DNA of 64,000 bases. It comes from Tubulanus polymorphus. Lineage: Eukaryota > Nemertea > Palaeonemertea > Tubulaniformes > Tubulanidae. Made by a program: the position numbers and the translations under genes. The number at the start of each line of letters is the position of its first letter. Position 1 is the first letter of the stretch. The DNA lies in contig NC_134031.1 in assembly GCF_964204645.1 (NCBI RefSeq), forward strand, positions 2,835,001 to 2,899,000, in the 5' to 3' direction. The notes beneath the pieces were generated by a model. That model ran no database searches. It saw nothing but the letters and a program-made list of their open reading frames with translations, and was not told where the DNA came from. This document shows, one piece after another, positions 10,626 to 45,043 of the stretch.

Positions 10626-13600
10626 ATGAATCAAAGGAGAAATGATAGGGGTAACCGAAGGGGAGGTGGAGCGAGGCCTAGGGTGAGAGACAATGGAGAT
10701 GATCTACAAAGAGACCACGGAATGAGAGGCAGAAGACAAGACCAAGGCCGTGGAGGAAGAGGTGGCAGGCAAAAGTACGTGATAACCATCAGGCTCAATT
10801 TCACACAGTTAAAACCTAATGAAAATTAACTTATTCTAGATATCTCAGTTGTATGTTGGCTGATAAGGGCCACGAAAATGTTTCTTAATAGAAAATAATT
10901 TGTCGATTTGAAAAAATGAAATTCCATCAAATTCAAAGCGAAAATAATTTCGTCTAAACTGAATTTTTCGAAAAATGTTCAGAAATGAAAATAACTCCGC
11001 CATTAAGAATAAATCACATTCAAAAATATATGTACCTATAGATATAATTTCGTTATGTTAAATAATCGCCTTCGAAATATATTTGTGAGTAAAAACAATT
11101 CCATCTCAATCGAGATATTTACCCGTCTGAGATATGTTTGCTGTAAAAATAGTTTCGGGGTTTCCCATTTATGCGCGCTTATTGATTGTGCTACAACTGG
11201 GGCAGGTCTGTTTGTAGCATATATCATAAGGTACAATTGATGCAAAATACAATTAAACTGCACAATATTTTGTGAAGGGAGACACTACCAAAAATAGTTT
11301 CAACTATTATATTGATGTAAACTGCAATGGAAAATTCCAGGAGGATTTTTTTAAATCAATGGGAGCAGCTTCATTCACAGTGGTTTAAGCAATAGTTTGG
11401 GCTTTAAATCAATTAAAGAAGGGAGGGCTAATTTGGAATTCCTTGATATTCGTGTCTTGGAGCAGAACCAGATGGGAGCACAAGGAGTATGTGTTGCGTC
11501 ACAATTGTTTCCCTTTTCACGAAAAAATGTCACCTTTCTGCAGCTAAAGAGAGTTTTGGCCCAATATCCTCTTCAACTATTTCTGTGTCACTCAGGTAAG
11601 TGGAAATATCACTGATATTTCGCAATTTTCCAGACCCCAATTTAAGCTTAGCGCCTACAGCACTTGCTTGGTGTGGATACTTGCCCTTTTTAACAGTATG
11701 CTCTTTTCATTTCTTTGTGCTCCTGTCAAAGTCTGCCTCTGGACCCGCCCCTTTTTTGAACAACATTGTCTGGCTATACAGCAGGCAGGCTGTACTTAGG
11801 ACATCGGTAGCACACTGCGTTGTCCAGATCTAATTTCTCTTTATAAATGACCTGTTGTTTCAGTGTTAGAAGACGTGATGATGTGCAGGATGATGAGGAT
11901 GTGATCGACTTGGATCAGCGCGAGCCTGCTTTTCATCAACCGCCACTGAATAAACAATCAAGATTTCGAATTGGATGGAAGAAACTTATGGAATTGAAAG
12001 TAGCCGACCCTCAAGAGATTGTTATTTATTTGAATGGCAATAAAAAAGTATTCACCGAAGATGTTTTAAAGAAAGAGTTGTATAAAGATAAGCCGGACTG
12101 GATACCATTGGTGTTGTCGATTTCACTTAGAGTGTGTGAGGCAACAGCAATACCTGAGAGTGTAATCGAATATCTGACCACTTTGGCCAACTCTGATTTC
12201 ATCAGCAAGAATATGGGCATGCATCTGATGAATATGACAATGGAGAAAAGTGTCGATAGACAAGAAAAGAACAAAGAGACATTGATACTGGCCATCAGAC
12301 TCTTTCAGGAGTTGTTAACACGCGTACCGACCCAAGCTTTTCAAGCTATGTTTGCGATGTCTGCTATGCTCAGTCACATCCTGACATTTCTGCGTATGAA
12401 AACGAATATAGTCGATGAGGAAATTGAATCAGGCGTTGAGCTAGTGCAGAAAATGGTCGAAGATCTTCACCAGAAGGAAGCCGAAGTTGTAAATGAAAAT
12501 ATGAGCAAATGCCGAGTCAGTAATCAACAAAGTGACACTCCACCCGATGACTTTCGCACGGTTTCATTGATTCCACAGCCAAAAGACCTAGATCTGTATG
12601 AAAAACCATTCCTAAGGGCAAATATAGCCCGTGGTCGTTACGATGACGTGGATCATTATCTCGATGTCAACTTTCGTTTATTACGTGAAGATTTTGTCCG
12701 GCCGTTACGTGAAGGTATAAACGATTATTTGAACCCGAGAAGAAATCGTCGCCAGCAACACATCAGAATTTATGAAAATGTACAAATTCTTAATCCAGTC
12801 TGTGGTACTTCTGGATTGAATTATAATATTCGCTTCAAGGCTGACCGATACAAAAATGTAAAATGGGAAACGAGCAAGCGGCTGTTATTTGGCTCATTAG
12901 TTTGTTTGTCGAGGGATAGATTCAAGACTATCGTCTTTGGAACTATTTCAAATCGGGATGTCAAAAAAGGTTTGCCGAAAGGAGAAATTGAGGTTCGATT
13001 TGAGGATTTTCATGATGAAATAACAAAGGCCATTCGGAATGCGGAGTACATATACACCATGGTGGAAACGTCAGCATACTATGAGGCCTACCGCCATGTC
13101 CTAATGGGACTTCAACGTATTGAGAATCTGCCTTTCGAAAAGCATATTGTAAGATGTGAGCCCGATATTAAGCCACCGAGGTACATGAATAGAAATACCG
13201 AATATGACATGACAAGTCTATTGACGGAAGATAATAAAGCTCATATGGTTTCTATGTATACTGGGCAGTATAACATTAGACCTCTTGATGATAGAAATTG
13301 GCCTACACCTGAAAAGATTGGATTAGATCAGTCTCAATGGGATGCCTTGAAGCTTGCACTTACAAAGGAGATTGCAATTATACAAGGCCCACCTGGTACT
13401 GGAAAAACATACATTGGCTTAGAACTGGTTAAAGTTTTACTTGATAATGCAAACGTGTGGCGGAACAACGTCGAGAATGAAACCATAAAACATCCAATAC
13501 TTATTGTGTGTTACACAAACCACGCACTAGATCAGTTCCTTGAAGGAATTCAAAAATTCAACAACACGGGTATAGTGCGTGTTGGTGGACGGTGCAACAG

Positions 13601-16600
13601 TCCTTCATTGGAAAAATATTTGCTGAAGAACTTGAAACACCGTCTCCGCGAAAATAGAGAGGTTCCCCGTGCTGTTTTTGTTGGACAGCAACAGGTTGTT
13701 GAAGACATGCGTTTTCTAGAAGATGAAATTGCAGATGCTGCTAAGAAAATAGCGCTAGTTGAGGAAGGAATACTTCACGAAAAGGTGCTTGAACACTGTG
13801 TACCTCCAATGTTGTACGAGCAGTTACTAGATGGGCCTGATAACGACGTTGACCTAGAGGCCTGCATGATGAAAGAATGGCTAGGCTATGGGACAGTGCC
13901 AATCTTTGACCAAAGGAGAGATGGTGTGGTTGAAATGGAAGTTGACGAAGAACAAATTGATGATAACGAGGAGGAAGGTGTAGATATTGATGATGAAGCT
14001 AATATGCTCGAGAGACAACGGATTATAGACGAACTTAGAGCTGAAGACTTTTTCCCCGTCCAAGAGAGACATACAGAAAGAACAGTCGACACAAGTATCC
14101 TGGGTCTGAAAATGGATGAAATCCAGAATCAGCAACGAGCCGACAATGGGTGGCAAGTCCAAGGTAAATCAAGATCGCAAATTCAACATCATTTGAAACG
14201 ACAGTTGCAATCACAGGATATTATGACTGATGCTCAAGTAAATCGTGTTCGATCTCTCTGGCGGCTCCCAATCGCAGAAAGGTGGAGGATGTATCGGTCA
14301 TTTGTGCAGAAATTCATTAAAGCAAGCAATGATCAATCCAATGAATTACAACTGAAGTACAGCCAAGCGGCAGAGAGAATGAAAGAAATTACATCTAGAA
14401 CAGACTTGATGATCCTTCAAAATTCTAAGATTATTGGTATGACAACGACTGGCGCTGCTCGTTGTCAAAGACTTCTTCAAGAGATAAAGCCAAAAATTGT
14501 TATCGTTGAAGAAGCTGCAGAGGTTCTGGAGTCACACATCATAACGTCGTTAAGTGAGGGCTGTGAGCACCTAGTATTGATAGGCGATCATAAACAGCTT
14601 CGTCCATCTGCAACTGTTTTTAAACTTGCAAAGAACTACAACCTTGAGATATCGTTCTTCGAACGAATGATCAACAACGAAGTTGAATATAAATGTCTGT
14701 CATATCAGCATCGAATGCGACCTTCCATAGCAGCGATGATGTCGTTCATCTACCCAGAGCTACGCAATCACATTGAAGTTCAATCCTATGAAAATATAAA
14801 AGGCATTGTTTCAAACGTGTTCTTTATAAATCATAAACAACTTGAGGCTACTGAAGATGAACTTCAAAGTCACTACAATGTCCACGAAGCTGAATATATC
14901 TCCAAGCTATGTCGGTACCTGATAATGCAAGGATACAATAGTAATCAAATAACAGTGTTAACTCCATACAGCGGTCAGCTTCACCAACTCAAACGATTCA
15001 TGCCCAAACGAGAATTCGAGGGCGTACGAGTTACATTGGTTGACAATTACCAAGGCGAAGAAAACGACATTATTCTTTTGTCGCTGGTAAGATCAAACAA
15101 AAATGGCTCGATCGGATTTTTGAAAATAGAGAATCGAGTCTGTGTTGCACTGTCTCGTGCGAAAAAAGGATTGTACGTCATCGGAAATATTGACCATCTG
15201 GCACTTCACAGTGAACTATGGAGTAAGATATATAACCATGTTCAAAAAGAGCGCATATGTGGGCCGGCATTGGAATTATATTGTCAAGTCCATCCGGAAG
15301 AAGCCCACATCATGGCTAAAGATCCAAGTGACTTCTTTAAGGCACCTGAAGGTGGATGTATGAGGCCTTGTGACTTTCGTTTACAGTGTGGTCACCAATG
15401 CCCAAAGCCATGCCACATAAGGGACAAAGACCACACAAAATATATTTGTCGAAAACCTTGCCAGAAGGTCATATGCGACAGAGGTCACAGGTGTACAGGA
15501 ACTTGTGCTGAAAACTGTAAACCATGCAAGAAACCTGTGGAAAAACAACTTCTGTGTGGCCACAAAAAAGTTGCTGAATGCAATCTAGAACCGAAATTTG
15601 TAAAATGCTCAGAATTCTGTAGAAGAAAACTCGATTGTGGGCATGAATGCCAGAAATTCTGTAGTCAACCATGTTCAGATACTAGAGAATGTACAAAAAA
15701 AGTTGCTAAAACATGGCCATGTGGACACAAACACAGCGTACCATGTAATACGAATGTGCTCAACAAACCTTGTCCTACAAAATGCAAAGCTGGTCTTCAG
15801 TGCGAACACCAATGCGATGGAACCTGTGGCACTTGTTGGCAAAGTAGAATCCATATCCCCTGTAAGAGTAAATGCCAACGGTCACTTGTATGCGGACATT
15901 TATGCAAGGTTTCCTGTACAAAGCATTGTCCTCCTTGTACTGATAAATGCAGAAACAGGTGTATGCATAGCAAGTGTCAGAAGTTATGTGGAGCCAAATG
16001 CGTGCCATGTAATGAACCATGTACCTGGTTTTGCAAGCATTACAAATGTACAAAATTGTGCCACGAATTGTGCAATAGACCGCAGTGCAACGAACCTTGC
16101 AAGAAGCGGTTGAGAAAGTGCGGCCATCCGTGCATTGGACTATGCGGAGAGCCATGTCCAAAGCTCTGCAGGATTTGTAATAAGGATGAAGTGCAGGAGA
16201 TTTTCTTTGGCTCAGAAGATGAACCGGATACAAGATTCGTTCAACTGGATGATTGCGGTCATGTATTGGAAGTGGAAGGATTGGATAGGTGGATCAGTCA
16301 AGGTGGCTCAACTGAGGCTAACAGCCGAGTAATTCAATTACCATCGTGCCCAAAATGTAAAACTCCCATACAGCAACACCTTAGGTATGGAAATATCATC
16401 AAGGAAAAGGTTTCTCTGATTGAACGAGTGAAGGAAAGGATTTTGGGTGCAGAGGCCGAGAAACAACAAACTGTTAATCGATTGCTCCGTGAATTGAATA
16501 CAGTTGACTTCAAAAGGTTTGCCGATCGAGAAAACATGAAGGACGTTTTGAATGGTGAGATGATTACCTTGCATCAAATCAATGTTATTCACAACCAATT

Positions 16601-17334
16601 GAACATAATGAAAGCGCTGAAGAAAATGACAAAGCAAGTGACTGACAATCTGAAAGCTTCACGGAATGAATCGGCAGACATTATATCCAACTTATCGACT
16701 ATAGAAGAAAAGCTTCTTCAAGTTCGTGATCAAATAAGTGATCAACAATTGGAAGATTTTAGCATCGAAACAACTCGTTGGCAGTTGTACATACGTGTTT
16801 GTGAGTTGGCGCAGAAGAAAAACGAATTGAGGTTCCAGTTAAGCGTTGAACTGGGTGACGAATTAGTTAGAACTGAAAATACTTTGACCGGTAACAGAAG
16901 AATAACCGAACAGGAGGAAACAGACATAGAGACATTCTTGAAGAAATTGAAGAAAGCGATTCCGAATAGTGGTCTTGGAATAAGTGAAGCTGAACGGGTT
17001 CAAATTGTTCAGGCAATCGGTTTGGCAAGAGGACACTGGTACGCGTGTCCAAACGGTAACTATATTGAATGTAAAATTTTGCATAAAAACAGTATACATG
17101 TGTATAATGTGAGCTTTTTTCGCTCCTTTATTTACTCAAACAGGCCATGTGTATGCTATTGGTGAATGTGGTGGTGCCTCACAACTCGGTAAATGCCCAG
17201 AGTGTGGCTCTGCAATTGGAGGTACTCGACACACGTTAACTGCTGGAAATCGACATTATGGTCTAATGGATGGTTCTAGTTACGCCGCATGGTCTGATCA
17301 GGCTAACATGGCGAATTATGAATTGAATTTCTAA
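10626..17334 (+). CDS. ZNFX1: NFX1-type zinc finger-containing protein 1 (ZNFX1), RNA helicase-like
   Basis: Three coding exons join in phase: 10626-10774, 11864-17055 and 17144-17334, giving 1843 residues (vertebrate ZNFX1 is about 1900). Exon 1 encodes an Arg/Gly-rich basic tail. The large exon carries a helical N-terminal region and a superfamily 1 helicase core: Walker A GPPGTGKT near residue 559, VEEAAE near 931, GDHKQLRP near 956, YQHRMRP near 995, NYQGEENDI near 1112 and ALSRAKKGLYVIGN near 1145. A long run of NFX1-type Cys/His repeats follows (about 1215-1490), then coiled-coil-rich helices. The last intron, only 88 bp, splits the C-terminal RZ-type finger, which reads GHWYACPNG-HVYAIGECGG...CPECG. 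In nematodes and mammals this family acts in small-RNA inheritance granules and antiviral RNA sensing; here that role is inferred. The ATG at 10626 is the first in exon 1; a 5' UTR exon may lie upstream. Confidence 0.95.
10775..11863 (+). other. ZNFX1 intron 1
   Basis: Bounded by AAAA|GTACGT and TGTTTCAG|TG; the split codon is AA|T. At 1089 bp it is the only long intron in the gene. It holds several short open frames but no exon whose phase fits: the open stretch ending at a GTAAGT near 11595 leaves a one-base overhang where two are needed. Confidence 0.8.
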
Positions 17335-21591: not shown

Positions 21592-23241
21592 TTATTTAAC
21601 GACTGCTAGCGATGATTTCGCGTCGGCGACGAGAAGTTCCATGCTGTCGGTGTCTCGACGTTTGAACGCTTCCGCGATCACTCGAGCCGCGTCGCGATGT
21701 TCGAGGTTCTTCAACGATTTACCGTTGACCTCCAGAAGAACGTGGCCGACTTTCAATCCGCCGGACTCGTGCGCCGATCCGCCGGGCTACAAGAGAAAAA
21801 TAGATTACTCGGTTTAAAATGAAATCTCGGTAATCGCGATATCGTTTAACTAAACACTACCATTTTCACTTCATGTTTTACATCCAATATTTACGTCCAA
21901 AGTAAATCTACCTCCAAAAATATTACACCAAAGATAACGTTCCAAAATTGTTGTGCTTTGAAATTTTATTTTAATTTTTGAATATCGACAAATTTTGAAT
22001 TACAATTTTTTTTATAAAATCTCCTCACTCGACGCTACGATTTAAATCTCAAAAACCTGTCCAAGGTGTACCTTTAACCATAAGAAGATAAGTATGTCGA
22101 GAGAAGATGAAAGAAACTGAAAACAAGATGTACGTAGAACAACCGAGGAACATCGTGGGGACACAATACGTAACATTAAAGGAAAGCTATAACGCCCCAG
22201 AGAACACGAAAAGCTCTTCCCAGTAAAAACACATCATCAATAAAAGGAGGTCATTCATTTGAAACGATTGATCATGGATTGATCATGGATTGATCATGGA
22301 TTGATCATGGATTGATCATGGATGCAGGAATGTTATACTTGAATGGTGGGTTTTGCCATCCCCTCCTAAATTCATGATCCACTCTGTTTTTGCCTCATAA
22401 ATGAATGACCTCGAGTTAGGAATGACTTTCGAAGGAATCTTTTCCAGAAGGGGTCGACATGAACCATTCACCAAAACGAAGCAGCCTGTTGTCACCTGAA
22501 CACTATACGTATACCGGCACCGCAGTTTATTAGCGTGCGAATATATACCTCGATTTCGACCACTTTAGGAATGGGCTCGCGAGATTTAGCACCTCCGGTT
22601 ATCGCGATGCCCAACGTCGTTCGACATTTTTTAATGATAACTTTCTGCGAAATAAATATATATTTCATAATTCAAAGAAGAACAGAAATCAACTTTTTTC
22701 GGCGCAGTGGAAAGTAATGATTGATATAAATAGAGTTGCTGAGAGATGCGAATGTCTGAATCGGAGATGCATAGAAGAACGTACATAGAGGAGGAGGTCC
22801 CAAATGCTTTTACTAATAGGCAACAACTGACTAATATCAAGAGGAACTAAGCAATATAATGTTTCATGGACCTTGATGATAATTTCTAACGTCATGAGAA
22901 ATAATCAGGGTCTGAGATTCTGACTTTCCATATCAGACTTCGCGTACGAACAATCAGCAACTCTGGATTCAGTTTTTTATATAATATACCGAGTCTTGTC
23001 AGAACAAGCCAGACAGATATACTACTAGAGAATAGAGAATGCGCCCGTGGCGTCTGCGCGAGTTTAATGTTACCTGTATGTTGATAATTCTGGGAAGCGG
23101 TTGACGAGTGTTAGCTCCACCTTCGATCGCGATTCCCAGCGTCGGCTTAGTTTTATACACGTTGACGATGCTACCCTCGTCCGTCTGACAGCTATCATCC
23201 ACCGTGTTTAATGGTTGCTGCAATAATCATTGTTAGTAATG

Positions 23242-23280
<39 letters not shown>

Positions 23281-26200
23281 GTAATAGTAATAGATTTCAT
23301 TATATAGTGCAGATTTAGTAAGATAATCGCTGCACTTCACCTTCACAATAAAAAACAGTATAGAGAAAATGTTAAAATTACCAATCAGGCATTATGAAAT
23401 ATTCTAAAAGTAGGTTTGGCTAAAAAGATATGTCTTAAGATAACGTTTGAAAATATGAATGGATGTTCTCTTAGAGATTATGGCAGTTTGTTCTAGAGGA
23501 TTGGACTAAAAAAATATTTTGCTAACAATCAATCAATTAGCTCAGACTTGATCCCAATGAAGTTTAATGGCTTGTACAGTGTTGATTCAGTACTATCAGG
23601 ATTGAAACATATTTTACCTGTGACGCCTGTTGTTTTTTCTCCTCTTCAGGAATAATAGGATTGAAATTTGGCTGAAAATAGAGAACGAAATGTTACATAA
23701 AGCATAGTAATACTATCTTAACTTACGAGACAATGTTCATAATGTAAGGGGCGGCAAAACACATTATTAAATCAGACAATAAATCCAAACTAAATTTGGA
23801 AAAAAAATAACGTCTGCGTTTAACCCATCCCTGTGCTAGGTAACTTCAGATTCTAATGCGCTCAATAAAACTGACTCAGTTCTTAATGATTAACGAATCC
23901 ATTGATGACAATCCCAGTTTTGATAACTTAATTCAGATAAATTTCAATCGAAAAGATTTAACACTATATATACAACACTAGCAACAAATAAACGAGTTGA
24001 ACAACACTTATTCTGATTCTATTCGGAGAGATAAGATACGGCGCCGCTTTCTCTGAGAGTCTAACATTTCAGAATTATTAAAAATGACAGAATCGAGGAC
24101 AGAAACAACTCAAGTGCTCATATGGAATATTCATCGGAAAGACACAGAAATAGAGACAGATTTCCAATAAAAGTCTGAGAGGTTTTGTTTTTGCTTTATG
24201 AGTGTTCGATTGCGCTGAATAACTTCATCATCTGCGTAGAGAAATATTGCGTAATATGAATCATGACCACGTGTTGATTCAGATTGTAGATTCTTACAGA
24301 TCAGAGAATCCATAATTCCCTGACATTTCCCTGATTTGTCCTGACCTTTGACCAAAAATCCCTCCGATTAAATTTGAAAATATCCTCAGTGGGGACTGTT
24401 TCTATTCAAGAAGTTCCTTGTGCTACTCGTCACCAGCAAGAACAACAAAACTACAAAATTCAATTTCCCTGACTTTTTCTTGATTCTCAAGAAACTGATT
24501 CCCTGATTTTCCTACACAGGTAAAAAATAAAATCTGAAATTCCATGAATTCCCCTGATCTGTAAGAACCCTGGACACAAGACGATGAAAAGTGATTTTCA
24601 CAAGAATTCTAGAGCGACACGTTTGTGCATATTTACACCAAATACTCTGACGGGAGACAAACCTACATCGGTCTCACGGATAACCGATATTTCGCCGTCG
24701 GGGTACACCAGGGGGCGTGGTATTCGAAACGGAGTGTTCGATAAAACGCTATCCATCGCCTCGGCGGAAGAGCTATGAACGATGAGGAAATAAAATAGAA
24801 ATTTTACCCGAAAACCAAAAAAAAGGTGATCTAAAACACAACAATTTGAATTTACATAAACGATCTTCAAAAAAAAATCGCACTCTAGTGAAAAAGTTTG
24901 AAATAAATTCTTTTCATGAAATCGCTACCAAACATACGTGTTTGACATGCTGGTACCCTAACGAAAATTTTACAAGAAAAAATTTCGTAAATTTCAAAAT
25001 TCAACTGAAAATTTCATCACCAATAAGATAACTGCTATTATGTTCCTAGAAATTTCGAGTCTAAATGTTTTGAAAAATATTGCAATGAAAATATTCCGAG
25101 TAAACTTCGAGGTTAACAACTGAAAACGAATGTCAAATATTCAACATAGACAAAATGAATAAAAGTAAAAAAAACGCACAATTAGGAAACTGTACAAACT
25201 ATGAACACACAGAGTCGACAAATCCTCTTATATCTCTGTCTCTCGTATGATTTGAAGTGTTTGACATCAATTGCCGATGATAATACGCTGCAAGTTTTAT
25301 AGGTTACAGCAACTGATGAGAGAGGGTGGAGTACCATGTTGCTAGGCAACGTATGTAAGTTAATGGATGCTTCGATTGCATTCTCTAACGTAGATCAGTA
25401 GAGCTATTCGCGCGACTAATGCAAGGCTCGATTTATTTCATTTGTAGAAAGTATCCTTCATTTTCGGTTTGAAATTATGTTTCTAATCGAGGAAACGCGG
25501 GAAACAACTGAATCAAACATCTTTTAATTGTGAAACCAGAAATTTCTTTTATCAGAGTGCCGCCACTTTCTGCCCATTTACAAATTCCCATGATTTTTCC
25601 ATGTTACAACAAAAATTTCCCTGAGTGAATCAGAGGAATTTGTAGGTTTAAAATATTACTATTTATTCAATTTTTATGAATCCTGTATTACTGAAGAGAT
25701 AAGTGGTCGATAACGTTATCTCTGAAAAATTCCCGGTTAAATTCCCTGAATTTTCCCTGATTTTTTAGGTTTTCTAATTGCCAGAGTTTTCCAGGTTTTC
25801 TAGGTCAGTGATCAACCTGTCTATCGTGTCAAGATATTTTCATTCCAATTATCGGTATCCCAACAAGAAATCGACAACCCTCAGGATACAGAAATTACGC
25901 CAAAATTGAGTTATGATACAGAAAACTCACTCAGCTAAGCGCGTTCATGTACATGCATTCTCAATTCAATTACCAGGGTAGTAACTAATTAGTAACAAAT
26001 ATAGTATAGTTAATAATTAACAAATGGGTTTAATTTACCATAATTGATATTGGATATTTGATGATAACTGAGTGGATCGTCAATAGCGCTGGGAATACAA
26101 CAACTTAAAAGTTTCATTAGCATAATTGCAAACGATGAAATGGAAACAGACTTGACGAGGGAAGAACCTGGTTATAGTAAGAATGGTTAAGTTGAAAGGA

Positions 26201-29200: not shown

Positions 29201-32200
29201 TTTTTAACAATTTTTCACATCAGTCTCACCCCCTGACTGATTAACATTTTCATAGAAGTGGTTGTATACGGTACCTGATCGTGTGAACTGCCGCTGCCGG
29301 TAGCGCGACTAGCCGCCGAACCGTGACTGTCAAACGATAAATCAGAAATATTGTCCGGAAAATAGGTCACATACTGCGTCTGCCTGGCCTGTAAATATAA
29401 CAACAACGATGACAATGAAGCAATTCGCGACCGATATCGAGAAATTTAATCCGAACAAATCGTTAATCGTACCTTCATAGTTTCCACGTCACGTTTCAAA
29501 ACGAGAGAATCGAATTTATCCAGATCTTTCGGCATGATAACAGTACGAACTTCTGAGAACAACGACGACTTTAATCATAAAACAAACAGAGAATCTGAAC
29601 TCATAACTGTGAAATAGGTCCTGAATATTAGATTATTAGTCAAATATTTTTTGACTTGAGTGGGTACCGGTAAGTGCATTCCGGACTGAGCTCAAATCGG
29701 ATCTTTTGGTACCGTCAAAATTTGTCGTAATAGAGACTGTGAGAACCGAGTTTCATGGTAAGTAGACTCCATTCGGAGTAGCTGATCGTTTATTTTATTC
29801 ACTGTTGGATATTTGCACTCTGGCAATTGGAACTGACTTCATAATAACTCTATATTTGCCAACTACTGATAGTAGCAACTGGGAAGAAACATGTCAACCC
29901 CTGATTGAAAACTGTTTGAATATTTACCTTCGCGTGTGTATTTAAAAGTTCGAACAGCGCTAACATTAACGAATCAATTGTAACGTGTTCTCTTTGATAT
30001 TCGGTTAAATAGTAACGCAGCGTATCGCGTTCCGTCTCGTTCAGAAGCTGCTGAGCCTGCGCGTCGATCATCGCCCATTGGCTACTCTTCGCGTTGTACA
30101 CCAACTGGGAACCGGCCCCTTTGGTAAATACGGGCTGGAAATATACGAAGCACGAATGAAATAATGTCCCCCAATTAAAAATGAACAAAATCCTGGTTTT
30201 GGAAACTTTAAATCTGTGAATAATATTTCATTCATCTGTAAATTGAGACTGCAATGTCTTGTCAGCAATTACTAGTATTGGTTATTTACTATTTCCTAAG
30301 TCCCTCAGTCATAAATATTAGGACCTTGTTCAACTTCCATCGGGCTACTACGAACAGATACATCTATTATTCATAACCAGAAACGAAACTCTGTCTCACC
30401 TCAGGAGCCATACTCTTTACATGATTCCTATCCAGGGAGCTATAACCATTCAGCCACCTATAAAACAGCCAACACATTTCATTTATTACCACTAAATTAC
30501 TGACATCTCAGAACTTACTACCATGAACCCTGGTAGCCCCAGTAGTAAGGCCAAGGCAAAGTCAGCACTTTAATGTACTTGAAGATGACTATTAGGATAT
30601 ACATGTAGTTGAAACGTCGAATTGATAAATTATTAGCTTGAAGGAAACTTTTCGGACTTCATCTTTCTCGTTTTATTAGTGTGGGATTCTCTATATATTC
30701 TAAAGCACTTTTTGATAGTAATAGTAAACACTTTTTAAGCACTTATGTAAGGCAAAAGTGACACTTTTCTCATCATTTAAGACCATGGTGGTCCTGGTCC
30801 TAATTGACCTCGTCCATAGCGCATTTGTTTTGAGCAGGACTCAAACCCACTTGCCACTCAGCACTGATAGTGGATGCTACAGCATCACACTATATCTCAC
30901 TGAACTACGGCGGCATTAAGCACTTCAGAAACTCACTATGAACCCTGTTGGGGTAATTATCTTGGCAATTACCCCAAGTTATTGGTAAACTCAATGAGTC
31001 GCAAGAAAAAGTAAGATGCTCTATTTCTCAAACCTTAGCTCTCCGACTTACATAGCTTTGCCGGCAGTTTTCACGGGTAGCTGCTCTTTCGGAATCCACT
31101 GAGTTTGATCGTACGTCGTACGAGCGTATGGCAGACGACCGACGTCTTTAATCGTCAGCATCATGTGTTTCGACGATTTGAGAACTTGCACGGCTTCGCT
31201 GTGGGAAATATCGAGAAAACTGCGACCGTTTACATCCAATATCTGATCACCGACCTACAACAAATGCAAATATATACCATTATCCAGCATTTATAAAAGT
31301 ACAGGGTACGGAATAAGTACAGTGAAATATTAAGGGACTCAAATTTTTTTGTTTAAATGAAATTTCTAGATTCAACAACATTTCTCGATTTTCAAATTTT
31401 TCAAATTTCGTTTGAAATCACAAGATCAAAAAGTAAAATTCCAACAAAAAGTTTTCCTCACAAAATTTATAATCTTTCTTTTTTAATTGGTGCAATTTTC
31501 ATGTCAAAATTACAAGAAAATTTTTTTCTGGATATTGGATCAGATTTTCTGGGATTTTCAACTAACCTTTAATCCGGCATTTTCCGTCACCGAAAACGGA
31601 TCAACGCCGGTGATGTAAACGCCTAAACCAAACTCATTACCGCCTCGGATCATCAGACCCAAACTATACCCATCTTTAACTACCACATTCACCTAGAAAC
31701 GATATCGAAATATCACGCTACGATTTTCAGACACACGCAGAGACCGAAAAAGAACGAGATAATCAGGAATTTGTCACGAAAAAATCAACCATTTAAAAAA
31801 CGATCGCAGACATTTCGCAGATGTTGCTGATATGAATGAAAGATCGATTACCCTGGATATGAGTGGACAGGTAATCAATACACAGATAGCTATAAACTGT
31901 ATCTCAATTATATCTCAATATACCATCAGTAAGGTGAAGCAAGTTTCATTTTCAAAATCTGACATTCTAAGATCTTCATTATTCGCACTCATGGGTCGTT
32001 ATAACGTAATTCTTAATGAAACCAACGTTTTCCTGGGAAAATACATCATTAAAACACCGTGTTGTCTATTCTTGGGAACCCAACAGCGGTGATATCAGAC
32101 TTGGAGTTTGACTGTACATAGAACCTTGCAGGGGCAGATTTAGGGTCTGCTTTAGGGAGGGGTGCATCCCCAAATAAAAAAGGGCCTTTCATATAATTAA

Positions 32201-35200
32201 AAGGGCACCAGGAAAAAAAAACTCAGCAGAATACATTTTTTGGAAATATAGAGAACAAAGAATTTAAACTTTTTTGGTATCAGTTTGATATTTCTTACTT
32301 TTCCCGTAAAATTTCTGGGCAACTTGACATTTCTAGGAGGTGCACATCCCCTGCACTGTCCCTTGGATACACGCCTGCCTTACATAGGCTACTTAAAGGT
32401 TTCAAAAGTCACCTAAATATTAGTTGTTTTAGTAGCTCTTCATAGCAACCGCCATGAATAGAACAAGTAAGAGATATCAGGACTCAAGAGCCAACTTGAA
32501 TAGTGGGCAATTGGGGTCTACCCAGATTATGAATTTTCCATACCCCTAAGTTACACTTATCGCAAATCTAGAACAGGCCAATGTAGGCCTGTTCAAAGTA
32601 AGTAAATGCCTATTATCAAAAGTTTCCAGGGTCTGCAAAAAATATTCCCATTTTCAAAGACTTTCCCAAGACCCACAAGAACCCTGTTATCCCGATTGTA
32701 ACTGACTGCGGCAGATATAGGGTCTGATTTTGGGAGGGGTGCATCCTCAAAAATAGGGCATATATAATATATAAAAACAACTCATTTTCACAACACATTA
32801 ATCGCAATTAAACACATCGCAAACTTTGAACAGGCCAATGTAGGCCCATTCAAAGTAAAGTAAATGCCTATTCAATAGCTTTTCCAGTACGGGCAAAAAA
32901 TGTTCACATTTTCAAAAACTTTCCCAAGACCCACAAGAACCCTGTTATCCTGATCTGTAACTGACCGCGGCGTTACCTTTCGTTCGTCGCTGTCTTTCAG
33001 CAGCATTAAACCACTTTTACGTTCGCCCTTCGATTCGTATCGCGACGTCTTATCGATTTCGGGCGGCGGCGGCACCGCGCGACCTTGAGGGTCGACCCAC
33101 GTGTACGTCTGGTGTACGGTGAACGAACCGGGAATTCGACCGACGCTTTTCACGACCAAATCCAAACGATTCGCCGATTTTATTATCTGTGTAGAAAAAT
33201 GAGAAATATGATTCGCTTCAGCGGGCGAATTTCACGAAGTTTTAGCCTCGGATCTCGAAGCGGTGCTTGAAGGGGCTGCATTCATTGTGAAGTATATGAC
33301 ATATGACATCGTTGCTGCTGAAGTGCTTATATAAGAGTATATTTTGGTGTTATCTTCTATTGCTACATTAGCTCGATATATTTCAAAGCAATTATCGGCA
33401 TTCATAGAATAGCCACACCGGTAGGGGGAGATTTTTTATAAGGGGTGGTTGATTTTCTGAGGGCGTGGACATAAAAATGAAAGGGGTAGTAGCCCCTCGA
33501 AAACCCCTCGTGGAGAACACTGACTTGAACCCGTAAATTTTCCTGGAAGGAAGCCTTGATTCTGGGGCAGATAGAGGCCTGATCATGGCAGTATCTCAGT
33601 ATTCTGAATTTGGTCGATTTTTTGCCGAGATAGGCCTATCAAAAATTGAAAAATGAAACTATCCCCGATTTATGAAAGAAATTGTTTAATTCATTTCTTT
33701 CTTGATGTTTCTTGATTAGAAACTTAAATCAAAGGTAAACTAATCGACGAACAACTGTTCAGTCGATAGAATGGATATCAGTACACAATACAAAAATCAC
33801 TTGAAATGAAATCTATTGTTTATCGGTAAAATATACCGCGATAATTCACAATGATATTTCCTTGTTCTTGTTTCTTTTTAATTGCACGCGGCAGCACTTT
33901 AAATAATTCATCCTAATTCAAATAGCTATGAATTCAATTCTTTCGAATATGTACCGGTAATTGCATCGCACGGAAGTAGCGTGTCACAGGCTAAAACCAG
34001 TTCTCATCAATTATTCATTAATGTATTATAACTCATGAAATAGCTTGAGATATATGTACATATATATGTTCGTATTTCGTATTTCCAAGGCCGCAGATAT
34101 AGTGTTCAGCGAAAAAATAATATTAACAAAAAAAAATCTTTTGAAAAAATGTATCATAAACAGAAACGAAACCCCCCAAAAAATAATTTTAACACATGAA
34201 AACTATGATTTAACTTCATTCTATAAAATTTTTCCCAAACTTCTCCCCGACTTTTTATTTAGCTTGTTTTACAAAATTCACCGCCTTTTAAATAAAAAGA
34301 AGAGAAATTCTCTGATTTTCACCCTGGCTAGTGTCACGGAGAGCGGTTTAGAAATTGAATTTAATCAGAAATTCAAACATATGAATATAATCATAATCAC
34401 AGGCAAAGGTATCAGCTGGTGTCTTTGACCTATCAGCCTAAATTCATCGCTCAATTCAAATTGATTTATCGCAGCACCGGTTTAGACCTCTCTATATCGG
34501 ATCAAACCAGGTGGCAATTTAAACTGCATTTATACCGAACAAATTACTCAATAAAAAGGAATTTTAATTTGTAATTTAAATTTTTCAAGAGTGCACCATA
34601 TTTTTAGCTTATATCATCAAAGTGTACGTGATTTATTTAGCATATATATGATTTTAGAAATGAATTTCAAATACTCTAATATGCTAAACTATGACATACT
34701 TCATAAGATGGCCTCAGGCCTATGCAAAATTCCTATTCATTTATTCTATCTATTTTAACTACTGCCACACTGCTATAGTTTTAACGCCTTTCGCGACTGA
34801 AATAATGTTGACAAATTTTCAAGGACGTTTACGTAGAGCTTCGAAATATTTCCGAGGAGCCATCTATAACCGGACTGCCGTTCAAATAAATGTGTCGATA
34901 ACAATTGATTCGTAATTGACTCCGTATAAAAATGTGGCTCAAACTACGACAACAAGGTATACACAGAGAATCCCTAGTGCGTGCCTGTGTATCACATCTG
35001 CTCCACGCGAAAATATGCCAGAGAGATCGATACAAGATATATTATAAATATATGTGTCGAGGCAGATGGTGAAATATTTTGCTTTGTGCGCGGAGTCGTG
35101 AGAATAATTCATTTTTCGAAAACAAAATATACATAAAACACGCGTTAGGAATTGGGAGTTAGCATTCGACGAAGGAACCAAAAAAAATAGAAAATTGCTT

Positions 35201-37454
35201 TTCAGTTTCACTGTCCCAATATTCAATATGGTGAAAATTAAAATAACTTAAAAACTGCCTTTCACTTTCACTGTCCCAATATTCAATAACGTGAAAATCA
35301 AAATAACTTTAAAATTGCCTTTCACTTTCACTGTCCCTATATTCAATATCGCGAAAATCAAAATATCTTTGTGATATGGTGTCTTTTGTTTATAGTTTTT
35401 ATTGTACGTTTTATTGAAACGCAGTGAATTGCAGTATCAAGAATGAAACGTGTTTAAGCGAAACTCTAAATTCAGATAACACCAAAATCAAAATAACTTT
35501 CCTCTAAACACGGCATCTAAATGCAGTCCAGTTTCATAAGAATGGGCCAATATTGTTCATCATCATCAGAGTAGCTACTTTTCCTGACTATTTCCTGACA
35601 TGCACACGTTGTTTTCCCCGACTTGACCTGCTAAGAATCCAATCAATTACCACTAGTCAAATACGTAAGACAGACGGATACTGTCTGATTTTATGCACGA
35701 TCTTATCTAGCAACTCAACAAATTTCCCTGACTTTACAGCTTTACAACAGCTTTTGCCTGAATTGACAAAATTCCCTGGCTATTTCCTGACTTTTTTTAA
35801 GAAAAGAAAATCCAACACTTTTCCCTGATTTCTAGGTATTAGTGGCCACCCTGGTCATTATTATGATTAGTTTGACATCGATCTGAAAATATTTCAAATC
35901 GAATTATCAATTCATCCGCTGATGACAGTTAATCTCTATAGATGTAGAATCCACTGGCTAACTGCCAATTACTGTGAAGTGTGTGAACTGGGCGTTGGAG
36001 GCATTATTGCGTATTATAGTATGAACAATATTTAATCAGAAGTAAACACAGAGAGAATGGAAATTAAATTGTCGAGTGTGGATTTTATATCATTTGCACC
36101 TGTTATCATCGCACAGTACATCTAGCATTCGTTAACGCAATCGTATTCATATATATCCTAGACCTATAGGCCTTTACATAGGCAACAAGAACATCTTCAT
36201 TCTACAAGTGAACATTCGAAAATATGCCAAAATATGCCAAACGCCCTTAAAACATTTTGTCATCTCAATGATTATTTTTTTTTGAAGTTCGTTCTTCAAT
36301 ATTTCTTCTAGAATTCTAACGTTGAAAATGAATTATTTTCACAGCTCGATCGGCCGAACATTTTTTCAACATAAGTTTTCCTTTTTTTTCTACAGTAGAC
36401 TCCTCCTAAATCGGTAATGTTTTAAACCATCGATTCAGTGGTTTTGTTTAAACGAATTTTTATCGTTTACGAAACCAAATGCGGATTCGAATTCGAAAAC
36501 CACCAAAATTTAAAGGAAAAACCTGGTCCCAACTGTATTGATTTAGGTGTCGTGTACTGTACAACTAAAAACTGCCTATTTCTCATTGAAAGAGTTTGAA
36601 AGGAGTTTTGGGCATTTTGCTAAAATCAAAGGGAATTTCATTCATTTTGAAGGAGTTTTTAAGGAATGAAGGAGTCGTAGGGACTCCGTAGATTGACTCA
36701 CCTTAGCGGCTTCATCATGCGTGATATTATCGAATGGAATATCGTTTAAAACGATAATTTGATCACCGGACGCGAGTCCTTGTCGATACGCTAAACCGTC
36801 CGTATCGACGATTGATACGTAGATACCGATACCGTGTTCGGCGCCGCCGCGGATACTGAACCCTAACGACTCTGACTTTTTCGGTCGAATTTCGACGCAC
36901 TTGATTTCGGCGTCCTCGGCGCCCTGTAAACTGGGTGGGTGTTGTTTCGGTTTTTGTCGCGCGCGGTATTTCGACGGCAGCGTGCGCGAGTGGTTGTTCG
37001 GCGCGGGTCGCGCGCGCCCGCGCGTCGGTAACGTCGACGCACCGCCGCCGCGAGGTGGCGCCGCCTGCTTGCGCGGTAACGACTGGTATAAATCGTCGTA
37101 TAAATCCTCATCGACGACGTGTTTATCGAACGAGGCGATGTCGCCGGTCGGGATGACTTTCCTCAATAACGCGATCAGACGTTTTTTCGCCGGCGTGTCC
37201 AGTAAAATCTTCAACATTTGCACGAACTCGTAAACGTTGCGTCGCGCGCGATACTCGTTTAACGAATCGATGAAATCCAATCGATCGCGTTCGTTGAATA
37301 GATTATTAACGGCTTCCTGTAGCTGTTGGACGTTCGACGACAGACCACGCGGCGATGATTTCTGTCCCGCGCTGCGAGAACCGCTAGTCCCCGCGCCGCC
37401 GGAGTTACTCCCGCCGTAAGATGAAGATAGATGAGACATTTCTATCCGATCCAT
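21592..37454 (-). CDS. WHRN: Whirlin, PDZ scaffold protein
   Basis: Minus-strand exons joining in phase: 37454-36702, 33186-32977, 31692-31567, 31254-31052, 30457-30400, 30134-29928, 29568-29473, 29388-29275, 27528-27424, 26805-26710, 26500-26430, 26349-26319, [one exon unresolved], 24772-24637, 23671-23618, 23217-23074 (or 22644-22549) and 21786-21592. The parts found give about 865 residues; human whirlin is 907. The order is that of long whirlin: harmonin-homology domain 1 (about 38-112), PDZ1 (SLGFSIRGG at 197-205), PDZ2 (SLGLMIRGG near 331), harmonin-homology domain 2 (about 450-525), a low-complexity linker and C-terminal PDZ3 (TLGIAIEGGANTRQPLPRI, then LKVGHVLLEVNGKSL). In vertebrates it scaffolds Usher complexes at stereocilia tips and photoreceptor cilia; here a sensory or ciliary role is inferred. 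An acceptor at about 37525 suggests the first coding exon begins in 5' UTR. Confidence 0.93.
22247..22412. mobile_element. MITE with GAGGTCATTCATTT ends, internal 12-bp repeat
   Basis: GAGGTCATTCATTT at the left is matched by AAATGAATGACCTC at the right, a perfect 14-bp inverted repeat about 166 bp apart. Inside is an array of about five copies of TGGATTGATCA. A relative is at 49850-50006. Confidence 0.8.
22549..22644 (-). CDS. WHRN: Alternative whirlin PDZ3 exon (duplicated exon B)
   Basis: A 32-codon open exon with a good acceptor (TTTATTTCGCAG) and donor (GAG|GTATAT), phase 0 at both ends. It encodes CRTTLGIAITGGAKSREPIP and flanking residues. It aligns without gaps to the last 32 codons of the exon at 23074-23217, with 15 of 32 residues identical. 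Both exons can splice to the common exon at 21786. Inclusion of both would duplicate the first strands of PDZ3 and break the fold, so mutually exclusive use is inferred. Exon B lacks the extra 16 codons at the front of exon A. Confidence 0.8.
23074..23217 (-). CDS. WHRN: Canonical whirlin PDZ3 exon (exon A)
   Basis: A 48-codon exon between TTATTGCAG and CAG|GTAACA, phase 0 to 0. Its last 32 codons start PDZ3 and contain TLGIAIEGGANTRQPLPRI, nearly identical to the vertebrate whirlin PDZ3 as I recall it. The first 16 codons (NTVDDSCQTDEGS region) are linker sequence absent from exon B. Confidence 0.88.
23237..23292. repeat. (AAT)n microsatellite
   Basis: An uninterrupted run of ATA/AAT triplets followed by GTAATAGTAATAG variants, immediately upstream (minus-strand sense) of whirlin exon A. 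Confidence 0.9.
24773..26318 (-). other. Whirlin interval missing one exon
   Basis: The exon ending at 26319 leaves phase 0, whereas the next recognisable exon (24772-24637) begins with one base completing a codon. An exon of length 3n+2 must therefore lie between, or one boundary is wrong. A candidate at about 26034-26083 (minus; encodes DDPLSYHQISNINY) has good splice sites, but its phase does not fit either neighbour. The rest is repeat-rich, including CCCTGA-type dispersed repeat fragments at about 25560-25800. Confidence 0.5.
27795..28112. repeat. 19-bp minisatellite
   Basis: About 16 copies of CAGGCTATGTATTTATGAC with a few variants (CTACGTATCTATGATCAG and similar), in a whirlin intron. 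Variant and consensus units alternate in blocks, indicating secondary duplication of multi-unit segments. Confidence 0.95.
35190..35370. repeat. Three tandem copies of a ~61 bp unit
   Basis: CACTTTCACTGTCCCAATAT followed by GTGAAAATCAAAATAACTTT recurs at about 61-bp spacing (core near 35205, 35265 and 35325). Confidence 0.85.
36391..36561. mobile_element. MITE with TACAGTAGAC / CCTAAATC ends
   Basis: The left end TACAGTAGACTCCTCCTAAA and the inverse of the right end, TACAGTACACGACACCTAAA, form imperfect inverted repeats of about 26 bp around a 170-bp element with TA borders. A related left end (TATAGTAGACTACACCTAAA) appears at about 55137 in a CDK11 intron. Confidence 0.7.
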
Positions 37455-39892: not shown

Positions 39893-42705
39893 CGTATTGG
39901 TCTCGTAGCAGACAGCATTTTAAAGTATGCTGGGCTAGATGGTGTAGGCTTATTTGAATGGACAAGGATCGTGTGCCCCGGAGGAACCATTGAAACATTG
40001 ATGGAAGGTAATTTCTCGGTTCAGTACTGATTTATATTGTTCATTTTCATTGGGTTACTGATTAGTTGTATATTACAGAATTGAAAAAGGTGAAGATGCT
40101 GAATGTGGAACAACTAATCGTCCATGTTGGAACAAATAATATGACGCGTGATGTCCCGCTTGAGATTGTTCTGCGAAGACACGTTGAATTAATTCGATTG
40201 TTGCTCTATAAATGTACTGGGACCATCATTGTACCAGCTCTTTTTCCTCGATGTGATGAGTAAGTATCAAGAATAGATTTTTCTTGAAGTACTATATTTA
40301 TGATCGATGTAATGATTTTTAAATTTCTTTCTTTTTTAAAGTTTCGATGCTGACACAAAGATATTTCATTACAATGAAATGCTGCACCGCGAATGCTTTA
40401 CACTTGGTGTAAAGTTCGTTGATTTTCACTTCTCAAGAGATCTCCTTTCACCGTAAGTAATCGTTTAATTTTAATAAGCCCAGTAGGTTATGTGCATTTT
40501 TTCGCGATTTAAACTAACTTGTTTTTTTCTAAATTTTGTGATCTAGGACTGACTTGTTACACCCCAGCCGTAAGGGAAATCAGTTCATAAATAACAGGAT
40601 AATGGAACTACTGCTATTGAAAAATGAAGATGAAATGTACGTAGAATTGCATTATTTTATCCAATTACCAGGTATGCAAACTACATAAATTTTATGATTG
40701 TACTGGAAATAATGAATGATTCTTAATCAGGTGCCCTCAATACTTTCCATATGAGATTGAAAAGATGCAAAGAAGTAGAGCAGTCCATCGACGAAAGGTA
40801 ATCATTTAGCATTGATATCCTAGAAAATGAATGATTTGCAATTAGTTTTTATAACTTGAATACGAAACCACTTTATTCAAAATCCTTGCATTGAATTAAT
40901 GAATCATATTGATAGCTGATAGCAAAAAACAAATTGAAGGATGATCAAGCAAGAGCATGGGATGATTCAACAATAGTGGTAAAGTTGTTTTCCTAAGTGA
41001 TTTGTACGTGATTTATCTTTATAAAGTTAGATATATTTTAACAGTTTTTTGTATCCTTCAATCCAGTATAGCAGTTTTGACGTTGCACATCATACGAGGA
41101 AACAATTCTGTTGTGAAGATCAAAGAGCCTTTTTCACATTCGACCAGGTACATATCATCTCAAGAACTTATGATTTAATATTAGTTTGGTCACTTTTATT
41201 TCACAATTACCTAAAGGCTGTGCATGCACAAATCTGTCTTTTTTTCCAGTACATGACTAAAATTGATGTGGCTGGTGTTGCTATTTGTTTAAAGCCTAAA
41301 TTATTTACTCCTTTTTATCAGACTAAGAACGTGAGTAATATGTTTCTCGAAATGAAATTATAGAAATTCATTGGTATTGGTATGATTTATGCTGTAAAGC
41401 TTTGTTTTTATATTCAGGGATGCTACAATAGAAGTTGTCACAATACTAAAAGATTTAACAGAAAAAGGAAGTCAGTGGAACATGTAAGTTTGATGCCCTT
41501 TCTGCGAGACGCGGGTTCATTTTTGTTATTTTTGCTTAGATGTTGAAGCAAAAACAGATTAATGTGCTCTTCCACATTAGGTTATTCATCCACAGACGGA
41601 TCCTGCTGACTCGACATGTTTTTGCGGAGTTGAATTCACCAATTGGAAAGATCTTCTAGACCATGTTAGTTTAAACCATACTGAAATGTAAGTACAACAT
41701 AATTCAATTATTTTAGTACCTACAAATCTAAATGACTTAATGCAAATGACTCAGAGATACCCATGTTTTATGTTAGGCCTATATGGGTAATTTCATACTC
41801 TATCTATTGATATGTCTAAAAAAAGTGAGTTGATAATGTGTATTTCAGGCGGACAATGGAGGAAGAAGGAAAGGACGCGGCTTGTGACAATTTCTCGGAA
41901 GGAACGATAGAGGAAGCAGAAAAGATGCAGGAAGATAGTTCGAAAGAAAGGATAGAAAGATTAAAGATGCAGGAAGATAGCTGGATGGAAAACAAAAAAC
42001 AGCTAAGTATCACAGGTGGTGGAGGTATCGAACCAATCATAATTGATGATAGTGATGAGAATGATTCTGATGATGAACATGTATGTAGAAGAAATTTTAG
42101 TTACAATCCAACAGAAATGTGCCTCAATGACTATCAGTTTTTGAAAATTCCTCCTGTTATGCCATCAAAGGTCACGTCATTCAGAATTTGTGACATGTCT
42201 AATTCATGTCATTTGGCTGATGATGCCCCCACTATGCCCCACAAAAATCAGTTGGAGGACATAAAAGCACAGATGCAGTCAAGGATTGTCCGTGACCCTT
42301 CCATTAATATCCATGTGAGACTCGATACAGGCTGCTATTCTATTGATCAGATTAATAGGTTTCTTTTCTTACATTATGCTAAAACCAAACAACAAGATCT
42401 TTTTGCCATGAATCTTTGGGTAAATAGTAAGCCTTTAAGCCCCACTGATTCAGTCGATTGGGAACAGATTCAAGCATTTTCAAATATGCTCTTTTCCTTA
42501 AAACCCTCTCAACAATTTCCAGTTGGTAATAATAATAGCGTATCTGTATCAGAACTTCAGACGATGACTAATCAAAAATGGTTTGAAGGATCTGTGTTAA
42601 ATGCTTTTGCATCTATGATAAATGATCCAATACACCATGTAAAGACGAAAAATGTAATCATCCATCTGAATTCTATATATTTAATGATGGCAATGGTTTT
42701 TTCAG
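39893..42705 (+). CDS. SGNH-hydrolase / C2H2 / Ulp1-like composite gene, 5' part
   Basis: Exons in consistent phase: 39893-40007, 40079-40259, 40342-40452, 40547-40636, 40731-40797, 40916-40978, 41067-41147, 41250-41330, 41418-41483, 41581-41687 and 41849 to about 42640 or further. The first four encode an SGNH/GDSL hydrolase-like domain: block I LVADSILKYAG (usual GDS reads ADS), block III VHVGTNN, and the terminal catalytic Asp/His in DLLHPSRKGNQF. Cys-rich short exons follow, then a C2H2 finger (CFCGVEF...DHVSLNH). After an acidic stretch (IIIDDSDENDSDDEH) comes a segment like the start of a Ulp1/SENP cysteine protease (VSVSELQTMTNQKWFEGSVL). The protease catalytic His-Asp-Cys part is absent. 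The true first exon is not found. Such mixtures occur in large animal transposons and domesticated derivatives; function is not known. Confidence 0.7.
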
Positions 42706-42712
42706 AATCAAG

Positions 42713-45043
42713 CCATGTTCATCAACATCTAGATTTTGTCCTTTTGTACAACATGATAAAGATGCAAGTCTAAAGCAAGGAGCATCTGACAATAATCTTA
42801 AATCAGTACTATGTAATTTTCATGTCCTGCAGTGTATTCGTCGCTTCATGAATGAAAATCAAGAACTTCGCTTATTTTGCAAGCCTCTAGAAACTGGTTT
42901 CAAATGCATTATGAGATCATGGGATGCTTCCTCTAGAACTGATATAGCCAATTCATTTATTAGTTTTATTGAGAATGATATTTCTTTGGACCTTATGTCG
43001 CAAGATACAAAAACATTATTTATTGATTACCTAAAGAAGAATTGGTTTAATTCCCAAATTTGGTCTGATGCATTCAATGCTGAATCAATTTATCAGTCAG
43101 ACCAATCTAACAGAAATAACCCTTTGCTATTAACTGATAATATTACTGAGCGCAAATTCAAACAAATAGATGATGTCTACTTAAGTGGACACCTAAATAA
43201 ACTGATATCATCTTTTGTACGATTACTGTTTGAAAATGTTTTTAATGATGAGATCAAAGCGACAAATATGAACAATCTCCAATTTAAGCAACTTGACCAA
43301 CGAGTTAAGAATATACGTCACCTTGAAAAGATAGAAAAGTGTTGCAAAAGAGCCTTTGATTTATTACAGAATAATGAGATTTTAAAATATGATGAAGAAA
43401 CTAATTGGTTTGTTGTGAAGAGTTCTTCACGAAAGAACTTAAATAGGTTAGAAGATAATGATAATTTTTTCAATGGTGATACTCAATATACATTCAATCA
43501 GCTTGATGTTTTAGAAGAAAGATTCCCCGATAAAGTATCAATATCCGAGGAACATTCATATGACATTTCAAAAAAATGCCGAAGGTACATAGGAAATTTA
43601 GATTCAATATCCAGTCGTATCTTATTCAATTACGTTATTACAATCGTTCCTGAAAATTGTCTTTCATACGTAGATGGTAATTGCCATTTAATCAATTTGA
43701 AACTAGGTATATGTACTTGTGAAGCTTTTATAATGATTGGACAACCATATTTTTGCAAACATCTTTTTGCCTGTTTTGCCCAAAAAAACAATATAACCAC
43801 AACGAAGGCTTTAATTGATGCATATAAATTCCACATTGTGGAGCCTCTGCCAACTTACAATTTTACTCGACAAAATAGTTCTGTTTCATCTACCCTCATT
43901 GATAAGTTAAAAGATCATTCCCACATTGCTAGCTCGAATGATATCAATGCTGCTCGGAAAGGGCACATTCTAAGTATTTTACATAATGAAAGCCACTGTG
44001 GAATTAAGTTAATAAGCGGACGACCTGCCAAACGACAACCTCACAATATGGCTCATAGGCGTGCTGAGGGTCCAATCAAGGACAATCAGGTTGCCATAAA
44101 CCTTCCTGAACTTGAAGTGATAGACCCTTACTGCCCTAAGGTTACAATGCCTAAAGATGCTGAGAATGCAAGACACGGAGGGCGAAAGATAATTAGACCT
44201 GCTAACAGAGGTGTATCCTTTTCTGCTATGGTTGAAAATGCTGCTATCAAACTAGGTAAACAAGCTAAAATATCAGAAATTGAAACCATAGACTCCACTG
44301 ATCCAGATCCTGGCAATGATATCGAATTTTCAGCAGATATTTTAAGTCAGAATAAATCATCCTTACCGAAAAAATCAAAAGATACCAAACCAAAAGATAT
44401 TAAGTCAATACCAGTTGTTAAAAATGACTCGAAGTCTGTTTTATTTGAAAAAAGTATTGTCTGTTCCTTTTGTATTAAAGACAAAATAAATCCTCCATAT
44501 CTTTGTTCATGTCGCAGGGAACTAGATAGGCACATATCCACTTCTCATTCATCTTTGAAACCTATCTCATGTGCTATTTGTTGGGCAGATGGGGTTATTA
44601 ATTCATATGCAAGTGAAACATTCCTTCAAAAGCACATTCGTATTGAACATAATCATCATAAGAAAAAATCTATTGTAATCGATTATAATAATAGAGATGA
44701 TTATCTCAACAGTTCTCCTATTACAGAAATCAATAATTCCAAATCTGAAAAAGAATTAGAAATTCTTATAGATCAACCTGGAAATGCAGGCCTCCAAAAC
44801 CTAGCAAAATTGAAACTAGATAATCTTTTGCCATCAAAAGTTGAAAAAACCCCTTCTCAGTTAGTTGCTGAAACCTGCCCTGTCTGCCACAAAAACTGCA
44901 ATGCTAATCCTAAGAAAAAGTCCACATTCTCAATTGAATGTGATAATTGCCATAGATGGTATCATTGGAAATGTGCTCCAATCAATGAGGCTCCTCCTGA
45001 ACATATCAGGTGGTTTTGTTTTCATTGTGACCCGATTTCCTAA
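42713..45043 (+). CDS. MULE-like C-terminal transposase / SWIM / PHD protein part
   Basis: This long open frame runs from about 42707 to the stop at 45043 in a different frame from the upstream exon. It opens with VQHDKDASLKQGASDNN and LCNFHVLQCIRRF, which resemble the second acidic motif and the C..H segment of Mutator-like (MULE) transposases; the first catalytic Asp region is not seen. NITERKFKQID fits the next MULE block. A SWIM zinc-binding motif follows (CTCEAF...FCKHLFACF), then basic and disordered sequence, two C2H2-like units (CSFC...DRHISTSH and CAIC...QKHIRIEH) and a C-terminal PHD finger (CPVC...CDNCHRWYHWKC...WFCFHC). It may join the upstream exon through a short intron (donor CAT|GTAAAG at 42639, acceptor before CCA at 42713, phase 0 to 0), or the locus may carry a frameshift. 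Probably transposon-derived. Confidence 0.7.
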   Translation, partial: PCSSTSRFCPFVQHDKDASLKQGASDNNLKSVLCNFHVLQCIRRFMNENQELRLFCKPLETGFKCIMRSWDASSRTDIANSFISFIENDISLDLMSQDTKTLFIDYLKKNWFNSQIWSDAFNAESIYQSDQSNRNNPLLLTDNITERKFKQIDDVYLSGHLNKLISSFVRLLFENVFNDEIKATNMNNLQFKQLDQRVKNIRHLEKIEKCCKRAFDLLQNNEILKYDEETNWFVVKSSSRKNLNRLEDNDNFFNGDTQYTFNQLDVLEERFPDKVSISEEHSYDISKKCRRYIGNLDSISSRILFNYVITIVPENCLSYVDGNCHLINLKLGICTCEAFIMIGQPYFCKHLFACFAQKNNITTTKALIDAYKFHIVEPLPTYNFTRQNSSVSSTLIDKLKDHSHIASSNDINAARKGHILSILHNESHCGIKLISGRPAKRQPHNMAHRRAEGPIKDNQVAINLPELEVIDPYCPKVTMPKDAENARHGGRKIIRPANRGVSFSAMVENAAIKLGKQAKISEIETIDSTDPDPGNDIEFSADILSQNKSSLPKKSKDTKPKDIKSIPVVKNDSKSVLFEKSIVCSFCIKDKINPPYLCSCRRELDRHISTSHSSLKPISCAICWADGVINSYASETFLQKHIRIEHNHHKKKSIVIDYNNRDDYLNSSPITEINNSKSEKELEILIDQPGNAGLQNLAKLKLDNLLPSKVEKTPSQLVAETCPVCHKNCNANPKKKSTFSIECDNCHRWYHWKCAPINEAPPEHIRWFCFHCDPIS

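Follow-up and report, generated by a model that had tools for sequence, protein, structure and literature searches.

Does the whirlin gene of the nemertean Tubulanus polymorphus possess two interchangeable versions of one half of a single PDZ domain? A preliminary description of the DNA stretch analyzed here (64,000 nucleotides of contig NC_134031.1, referred to as the window) proposed two neighboring, probably mutually exclusive exons for the first half of the third PDZ domain (PDZ3). Whirlin is a scaffold protein and its human gene is a deafness gene. The answer that we consider probable, judged from the genomic sequence, is that both exons, here called A and B, go back to an old tandem exon duplication and substitute for each other in the segment of PDZ3 reaching from beta1 to beta3.

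Identity and Organization of the Gene

The assignment of the gene to whirlin was confirmed, as both possible PDZ3 versions match vertebrate whirlin PDZ3 first. The best match of exon A joined to the common downstream exon C (A+C) was human whirlin PDZ3 (KIAA1526, PDB 1ufx) with an E value of 3.3e-33, and the same entry (PDB 1ufx) was the best match of B+C (E 5.2e-30), while the next best non-whirlin matches of both were found at about 1e-12 to 1e-14. The PDZ3 encoded here is nearer to vertebrate whirlin PDZ3 than to PDZD7, harmonin or other PDZ domains. PDZ1, PDZ2, and PDZ3 follow each other in order on one strand, the minus strand, with both HHDs recognized by eye only. The 5′ coding exon starts from the ATG and contains an HHD1-like region (assigned by eye) and PDZ1 (36702..37454, minus strand); a Pfam search of this first exon gave no HHD match. 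The exons further downstream, all on the minus strand, encode the end of PDZ1 and the PDZ1-PDZ2 linker (32977..33186), the first (31567..31692) and the second part (31052..31254) of PDZ2, HHD2 (29928..30134, assigned by eye), and the end of HHD2 (29473..29550, 5′ border not fixed). In the order of its PDZ domains, and with the HHDs assigned by eye, this organization is like that of vertebrate whirlin (WHRN), which comprises two PDZ domains, HHD2, a linker, and PDZ3. Insect Dyschronic contains only one HHD and lacks HHD1 (PMC8048344), and the HHD1-like region accordingly speaks against an insect origin of the gene.

A search of the genome (267.8 Mb, 77 contigs) yielded one copy of the HHD2 exon, so that no second whirlin or PDZD7-like gene is visible to a search with HHD2. 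Viral contigs contained no relative of the PDZ3 protein. A possible exon encoding AMDSVLSNTPFRIPRPLVYPDGEISVIRETD at 24667-24755 begins with an in-frame ATG; it could serve as a linker exon, or a short isoform containing PDZ3 could start there. Whirlin and Dyschronic are reported to carry a class I PDZ-binding motif at their end (PMC8048344), whereas the product predicted here finishes with SLAVVK (21592-21610) and lacks such a motif.

Exons A, B, and C

Exon A (23217..23074, minus strand, 48 codons, phase 0-0) encodes QPLNTVDDSCQTDEGSIVNVYKTKPTLGIAIEGGANTRQPLPRIINIQ and is followed by the donor gtaaca, and exon B (22644..22549, minus strand, 32 codons, phase 0-0) encodes KVIIKKCRTTLGIAITGGAKSREPIPKVVEIE and is followed by the donor gtatat. 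The borders reported before for these two adjoining minus-strand exons proved to be exact, as did the statement that both join the same downstream exon in frame. This exon C (21786..21592, minus strand; PGGSAHES...SLAVVK*) contains the common second half of PDZ3, from alphaA to beta6, and the stop codon TAA. All three exons are preceded by YAG and are in phase 0, and both A and B are bordered by GT-AG and begin and end between codons. Exon A comprises the vertebrate-like first half of PDZ3 and, ahead of the domain, 16 linker codons (residues QPLNTVDDSCQTDEGS). Since exon B, the alternative first half (beta1-beta3), does not contain these linker codons, A and B do not correspond to each other over their full length. 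An upstream exon encoding PNFNPIIPEEEKKQQASQ (23671..23618, minus strand, phase 0-0), which is predicted only, ends between codons and could therefore be joined in frame to A, B or C.

The splice sites had been called intact, which applies to the GT-AG dinucleotides present on both A and B, but the sites are not strong. At the acceptor of exon A, the pyrimidine tract is poor and preceded by an (ATT)n microsatellite, although the branch-point consensus TACTAAC is matched perfectly (23232..23238, minus strand, by direct reading). A crude matrix ranks the donor of exon B (GAG/GTATAT) as the weakest of those predicted for this gene. The (ATT)n microsatellite (23225-23300) adjoins the acceptor of exon A in place of the expected pyrimidine tract, and its length could tune the inclusion of A between individuals. 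The A-B intron (22645..23073, minus strand) has 429 nt with GT-AG ends, and the B-C intron (21787..22548, minus strand) has 762 nt and contains, at 22264-22330, direct repeats of CATGATCAATC that are partly palindromic. The linker specific to A (23170-23217) contains DSCQTDEG, which presumably resembles the binding core for dynein light chain (LC8) and which would be lost in the B form.

Homology of A and B

The count of 15 common residues out of 32 given for A and B is correct, with TLGIAI and GGA kept, and R.P.P is also retained between them. When every 32-residue frame of the window that lacks a stop was scored for likeness to A without gaps, B reached a score of 84 compared to 22 for the next best frame and a background of -31.5 +/- 12, and B was the only such stretch besides A itself that resembles A. 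In line with this, a tblastn search with A in the window found B with an E value of 7e-8 over 32 aligned residues. No third copy was present in the window, and the genome search found only A and B. Similarity remaining in the introns around A and B consists only of weak matches at chance level. Exon A had been described as close to vertebrate whirlin, which agrees with its identity to the human protein for TLGIAIEGGANTRQPLPRI in the 23-residue core, while TGGAKSREPIPK is the motif particular to B. Used alone against PDB, B is closest to whirlin PDZ3 (E 4e-6), compared to 0.14 for PDZD7, and an origin of B from PDZD7 was therefore rejected.

Constraint on Exon B

Between A and B, 38 of the 96 bases differ (pS 0.60, pN 0.33), which corresponds to a dS of about 1.2 and a dN of about 0.43, values near saturation. 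Different codons are used at 10 of the 15 residues that both exons have in common. A duplication produced by the assembly or by separate haplotypes was rejected as the source of the pair because dS lies above 1.

If the observed differences were scattered at random, a stop codon would arise in 59% of cases, and the observed similarity of A and B was reached in only 1 of 10,000 random placements (0.01%). The 10 replacements in the core (E-T, N-K, T-S, Q-E, L-I, R-K, I-V, I-V, N-E, and Q-E) have a BLOSUM sum of 14, compared to -6.3 +/- 5.1 for random non-stop changes in a simulation that takes A as the ancestor (P about 5e-5). The identity of A to the human core sequence implies that nearly all core replacements took place on the B side. 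These comparisons argue that B is under constraint at the protein level as a PDZ sequence, and the arrangement of A and B looks real and kept by selection. It appears very unlikely that B is a dead relic of the exon duplication which is no longer spliced. Its donor, which the crude matrix places last among those predicted for the gene, would fit such a relic; however, the frame has stayed open despite a dS above 1 and the PDZ signature is intact, and the conservative nature of the replacements, the full Pfam score and the GT-AG borders speak against it as well.

Combinations of Exons and Their Splicing

Scored with the Pfam PDZ model, A+C reached 48.5 bits and B+C 48.1 bits, whereas a product skipping both A and B reached 35.7 bits and contains half a PDZ. 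The reading frame is kept in A-B-C, A-C, B-C, and in C alone, and inclusion of both A and B adds 240 nt with the frame staying open. The reading frame thus places no penalty on the use of both exons or neither and does not enforce mutual exclusion. For A-B-C, the score was 48.0 bits with the PDZ formed by B+C, meaning that this domain could still arise, preceded by A as a surplus N-terminal half.

The last point bears on the possibility that B is a cassette exon which can be added after A, giving a B-C PDZ and an orphan A half, or that A and B alternate only loosely. The in-frame combinations, the retained score of the A-B-C product and the length of the A-B intron, across which both splices are possible, are all in favor of this. 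On the other hand, the unpaired beta1-beta3 half would expose the hydrophobic face of a PDZ, and known homologous tandem exons mostly replace each other in splicing (PMC9741552), so that we regard a cassette exon as unlikely. Substitution of A and B for each other is the reading followed here, and their mutual exclusivity is inferred solely from half-domain logic. Like the exclusivity, the presence of both exons in mRNA and the changed choice of ligands are deduced.

With 429 nt, the A-B intron leaves room to splice both exons together and is too long for steric exclusion. Neither a short intron nor a U12/U2 combination explains an exclusion of A and B by each other, and pairing between the flanking introns was no stronger than in shuffled sequence (z -0.4 to 1.1), giving no signal of competing RNA structures. 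Considering the intron length, the ordinary GT-AG borders and the lack of excess intron pairing, exclusion, if present, would have to be a matter of regulated splicing. This is in keeping with the poor tract at the acceptor of A and the weak donor of B, the latter according to the crude matrix.

A different use of B was also considered, namely that a promoter inside the A-B intron gives rise to a short isoform in which B comes first in the coding sequence and little beyond PDZ3 is encoded. An in-frame ATG that would serve as its start is located 8 codons ahead of B (MKYIFISQ/KVII), and a mammalian short form of whirlin keeps PDZ3 without PDZ1 and PDZ2 (PMC4859837). However, these 8 codons are intron-like, the PDZ border coincides with a regular CAG acceptor that has a T-rich tract in front of it, and the start of the mammalian short form, in exon 6, is a long way ahead of PDZ3. 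All in all, we consider such an isoform quite unlikely.

According to the preferred reading of an exon substitution, the ancestral exon for beta1-beta3 of whirlin PDZ3 would have been duplicated in tandem long ago, giving rise to A and B. Splicing would then pick either A or B and join it to C, resulting in two whirlin proteins distinguished by one half of PDZ3. The A form would possess the ancestral, vertebrate-like groove and 16 extra linker residues, while in the B form the linker would run straight into a PDZ with changed beta1, beta2, and beta2-beta3 loop.

Expected Effect on Ligand Binding

In the established PDZ topology, the border between A or B and C is located between strand beta3 and helix alphaA. 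A swap would therefore exchange beta1, the carboxylate loop, beta2, and the beta2-beta3 loop, i.e., one wall of the groove, and leave the alphaB wall constant. The carboxylate loop TLGI is identical in A and B, and the His at the first position of alphaB (EHRDAAR) is located in the common exon C, so that both forms contain the carboxylate loop (XPhiGPhi) and the initial alphaB His that characterize class I PDZ domains. Both forms are thus expected to accept C-terminal ligands of one and the same general class. The class of ligands is determined by the carboxylate loop and the first residue of alphaB, with the betaA-betaB and betaB-betaC loops acting as modulators (PMC7138185). A precedent is PDZ2/PDZ2as of PTP-BL, in which splicing likewise alters the beta2-beta3 loop and thereby ligand binding: the insertion of 5 residues into this loop in PDZ2as abolishes binding of APC and RIL (PMC4365404). 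It differs from the case described here in being an insertion and not an exchange of homologous exons. Based on these determinants and this precedent, the specificity is expected to be retuned rather than wholly different. The two forms should differ in affinity or in their preference for more upstream ligand residues, and it is plausible that the choice of partners, as claimed in the preliminary description, is changed via the beta2-beta3 loop and upstream ligand contacts and not via the ligand class.

We tentatively suggest, as a possibility standing a little below even, that a splice switch swaps beta1-beta3, half of the ligand groove, against a constant other half and so provides two specificities of whirlin PDZ3, perhaps cell-type specific, in this species and its relatives. 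Whirlin PDZ3 anchors partners such as CDH23 in the stereocilia of hair cells (PMC7532178). If the switch exists, such a pair of interchangeable half-domains would illustrate how a single binding site of a scaffold can be retuned without duplicating the gene, and with these two natural PDZ halves the control of ligand preference by the beta2-beta3 loop could be tested.

Comparison With Known Systems

Substitution of tandem duplicated exons is a well-described class with 236 events in human and 154 in Drosophila (PMC9741552), and the human events are characterized by conservative changes that spare key residues (Martinez-Gomez et al., PMC9741552). Members of this class are consecutive homologous exons of >= 7-8 residues, and A and B share this as well as conservative replacements sparing key residues. 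The two exons are adjacent, in phase and homologous, they differ mostly conservatively, and they would exchange part of a domain. Unlike in that class, the pair encodes half a PDZ in whirlin, differs in length by 16 codons and is known here from DNA alone. The best reading of the pair is that of a further instance of this known kind of event.

Vertebrate whirlin isoforms keep or drop whole PDZ domains (exons 1-13 versus 6-13; PMC4859837), and no report of alternative PDZ3 versions was found for vertebrate whirlin. Isoforms of Drosophila Dyschronic (dysc), the insect homolog of whirlin, differ at PDZ3 as well; in its short isoform, however, PDZ3 is wholly absent (PMC3330124), and these papers describe no swap of half a PDZ3 (PMC3330124, PMC8048344). 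In the literature searched, mutually exclusive exons were found neither for whirlin nor for half of a PDZ domain. As subscription papers, annotation databases and eukaryotic genomes lay outside the search, it would be unsafe to claim a first description.

Other Features of the Window

Two overlapping long frames in different phases are located at 41829-45043, and inspection by eye suggests a transposase-like protein with SWIM-type and PHD-type zinc-binding motifs. A stretch of tandem repeats at 45840-46834 reads TVDNSTNELRLTKTYRT in the minus-strand translation. Finally, an intronless frame of 1772 codons at 11847-17165 encodes a ZNFX1-type helicase.
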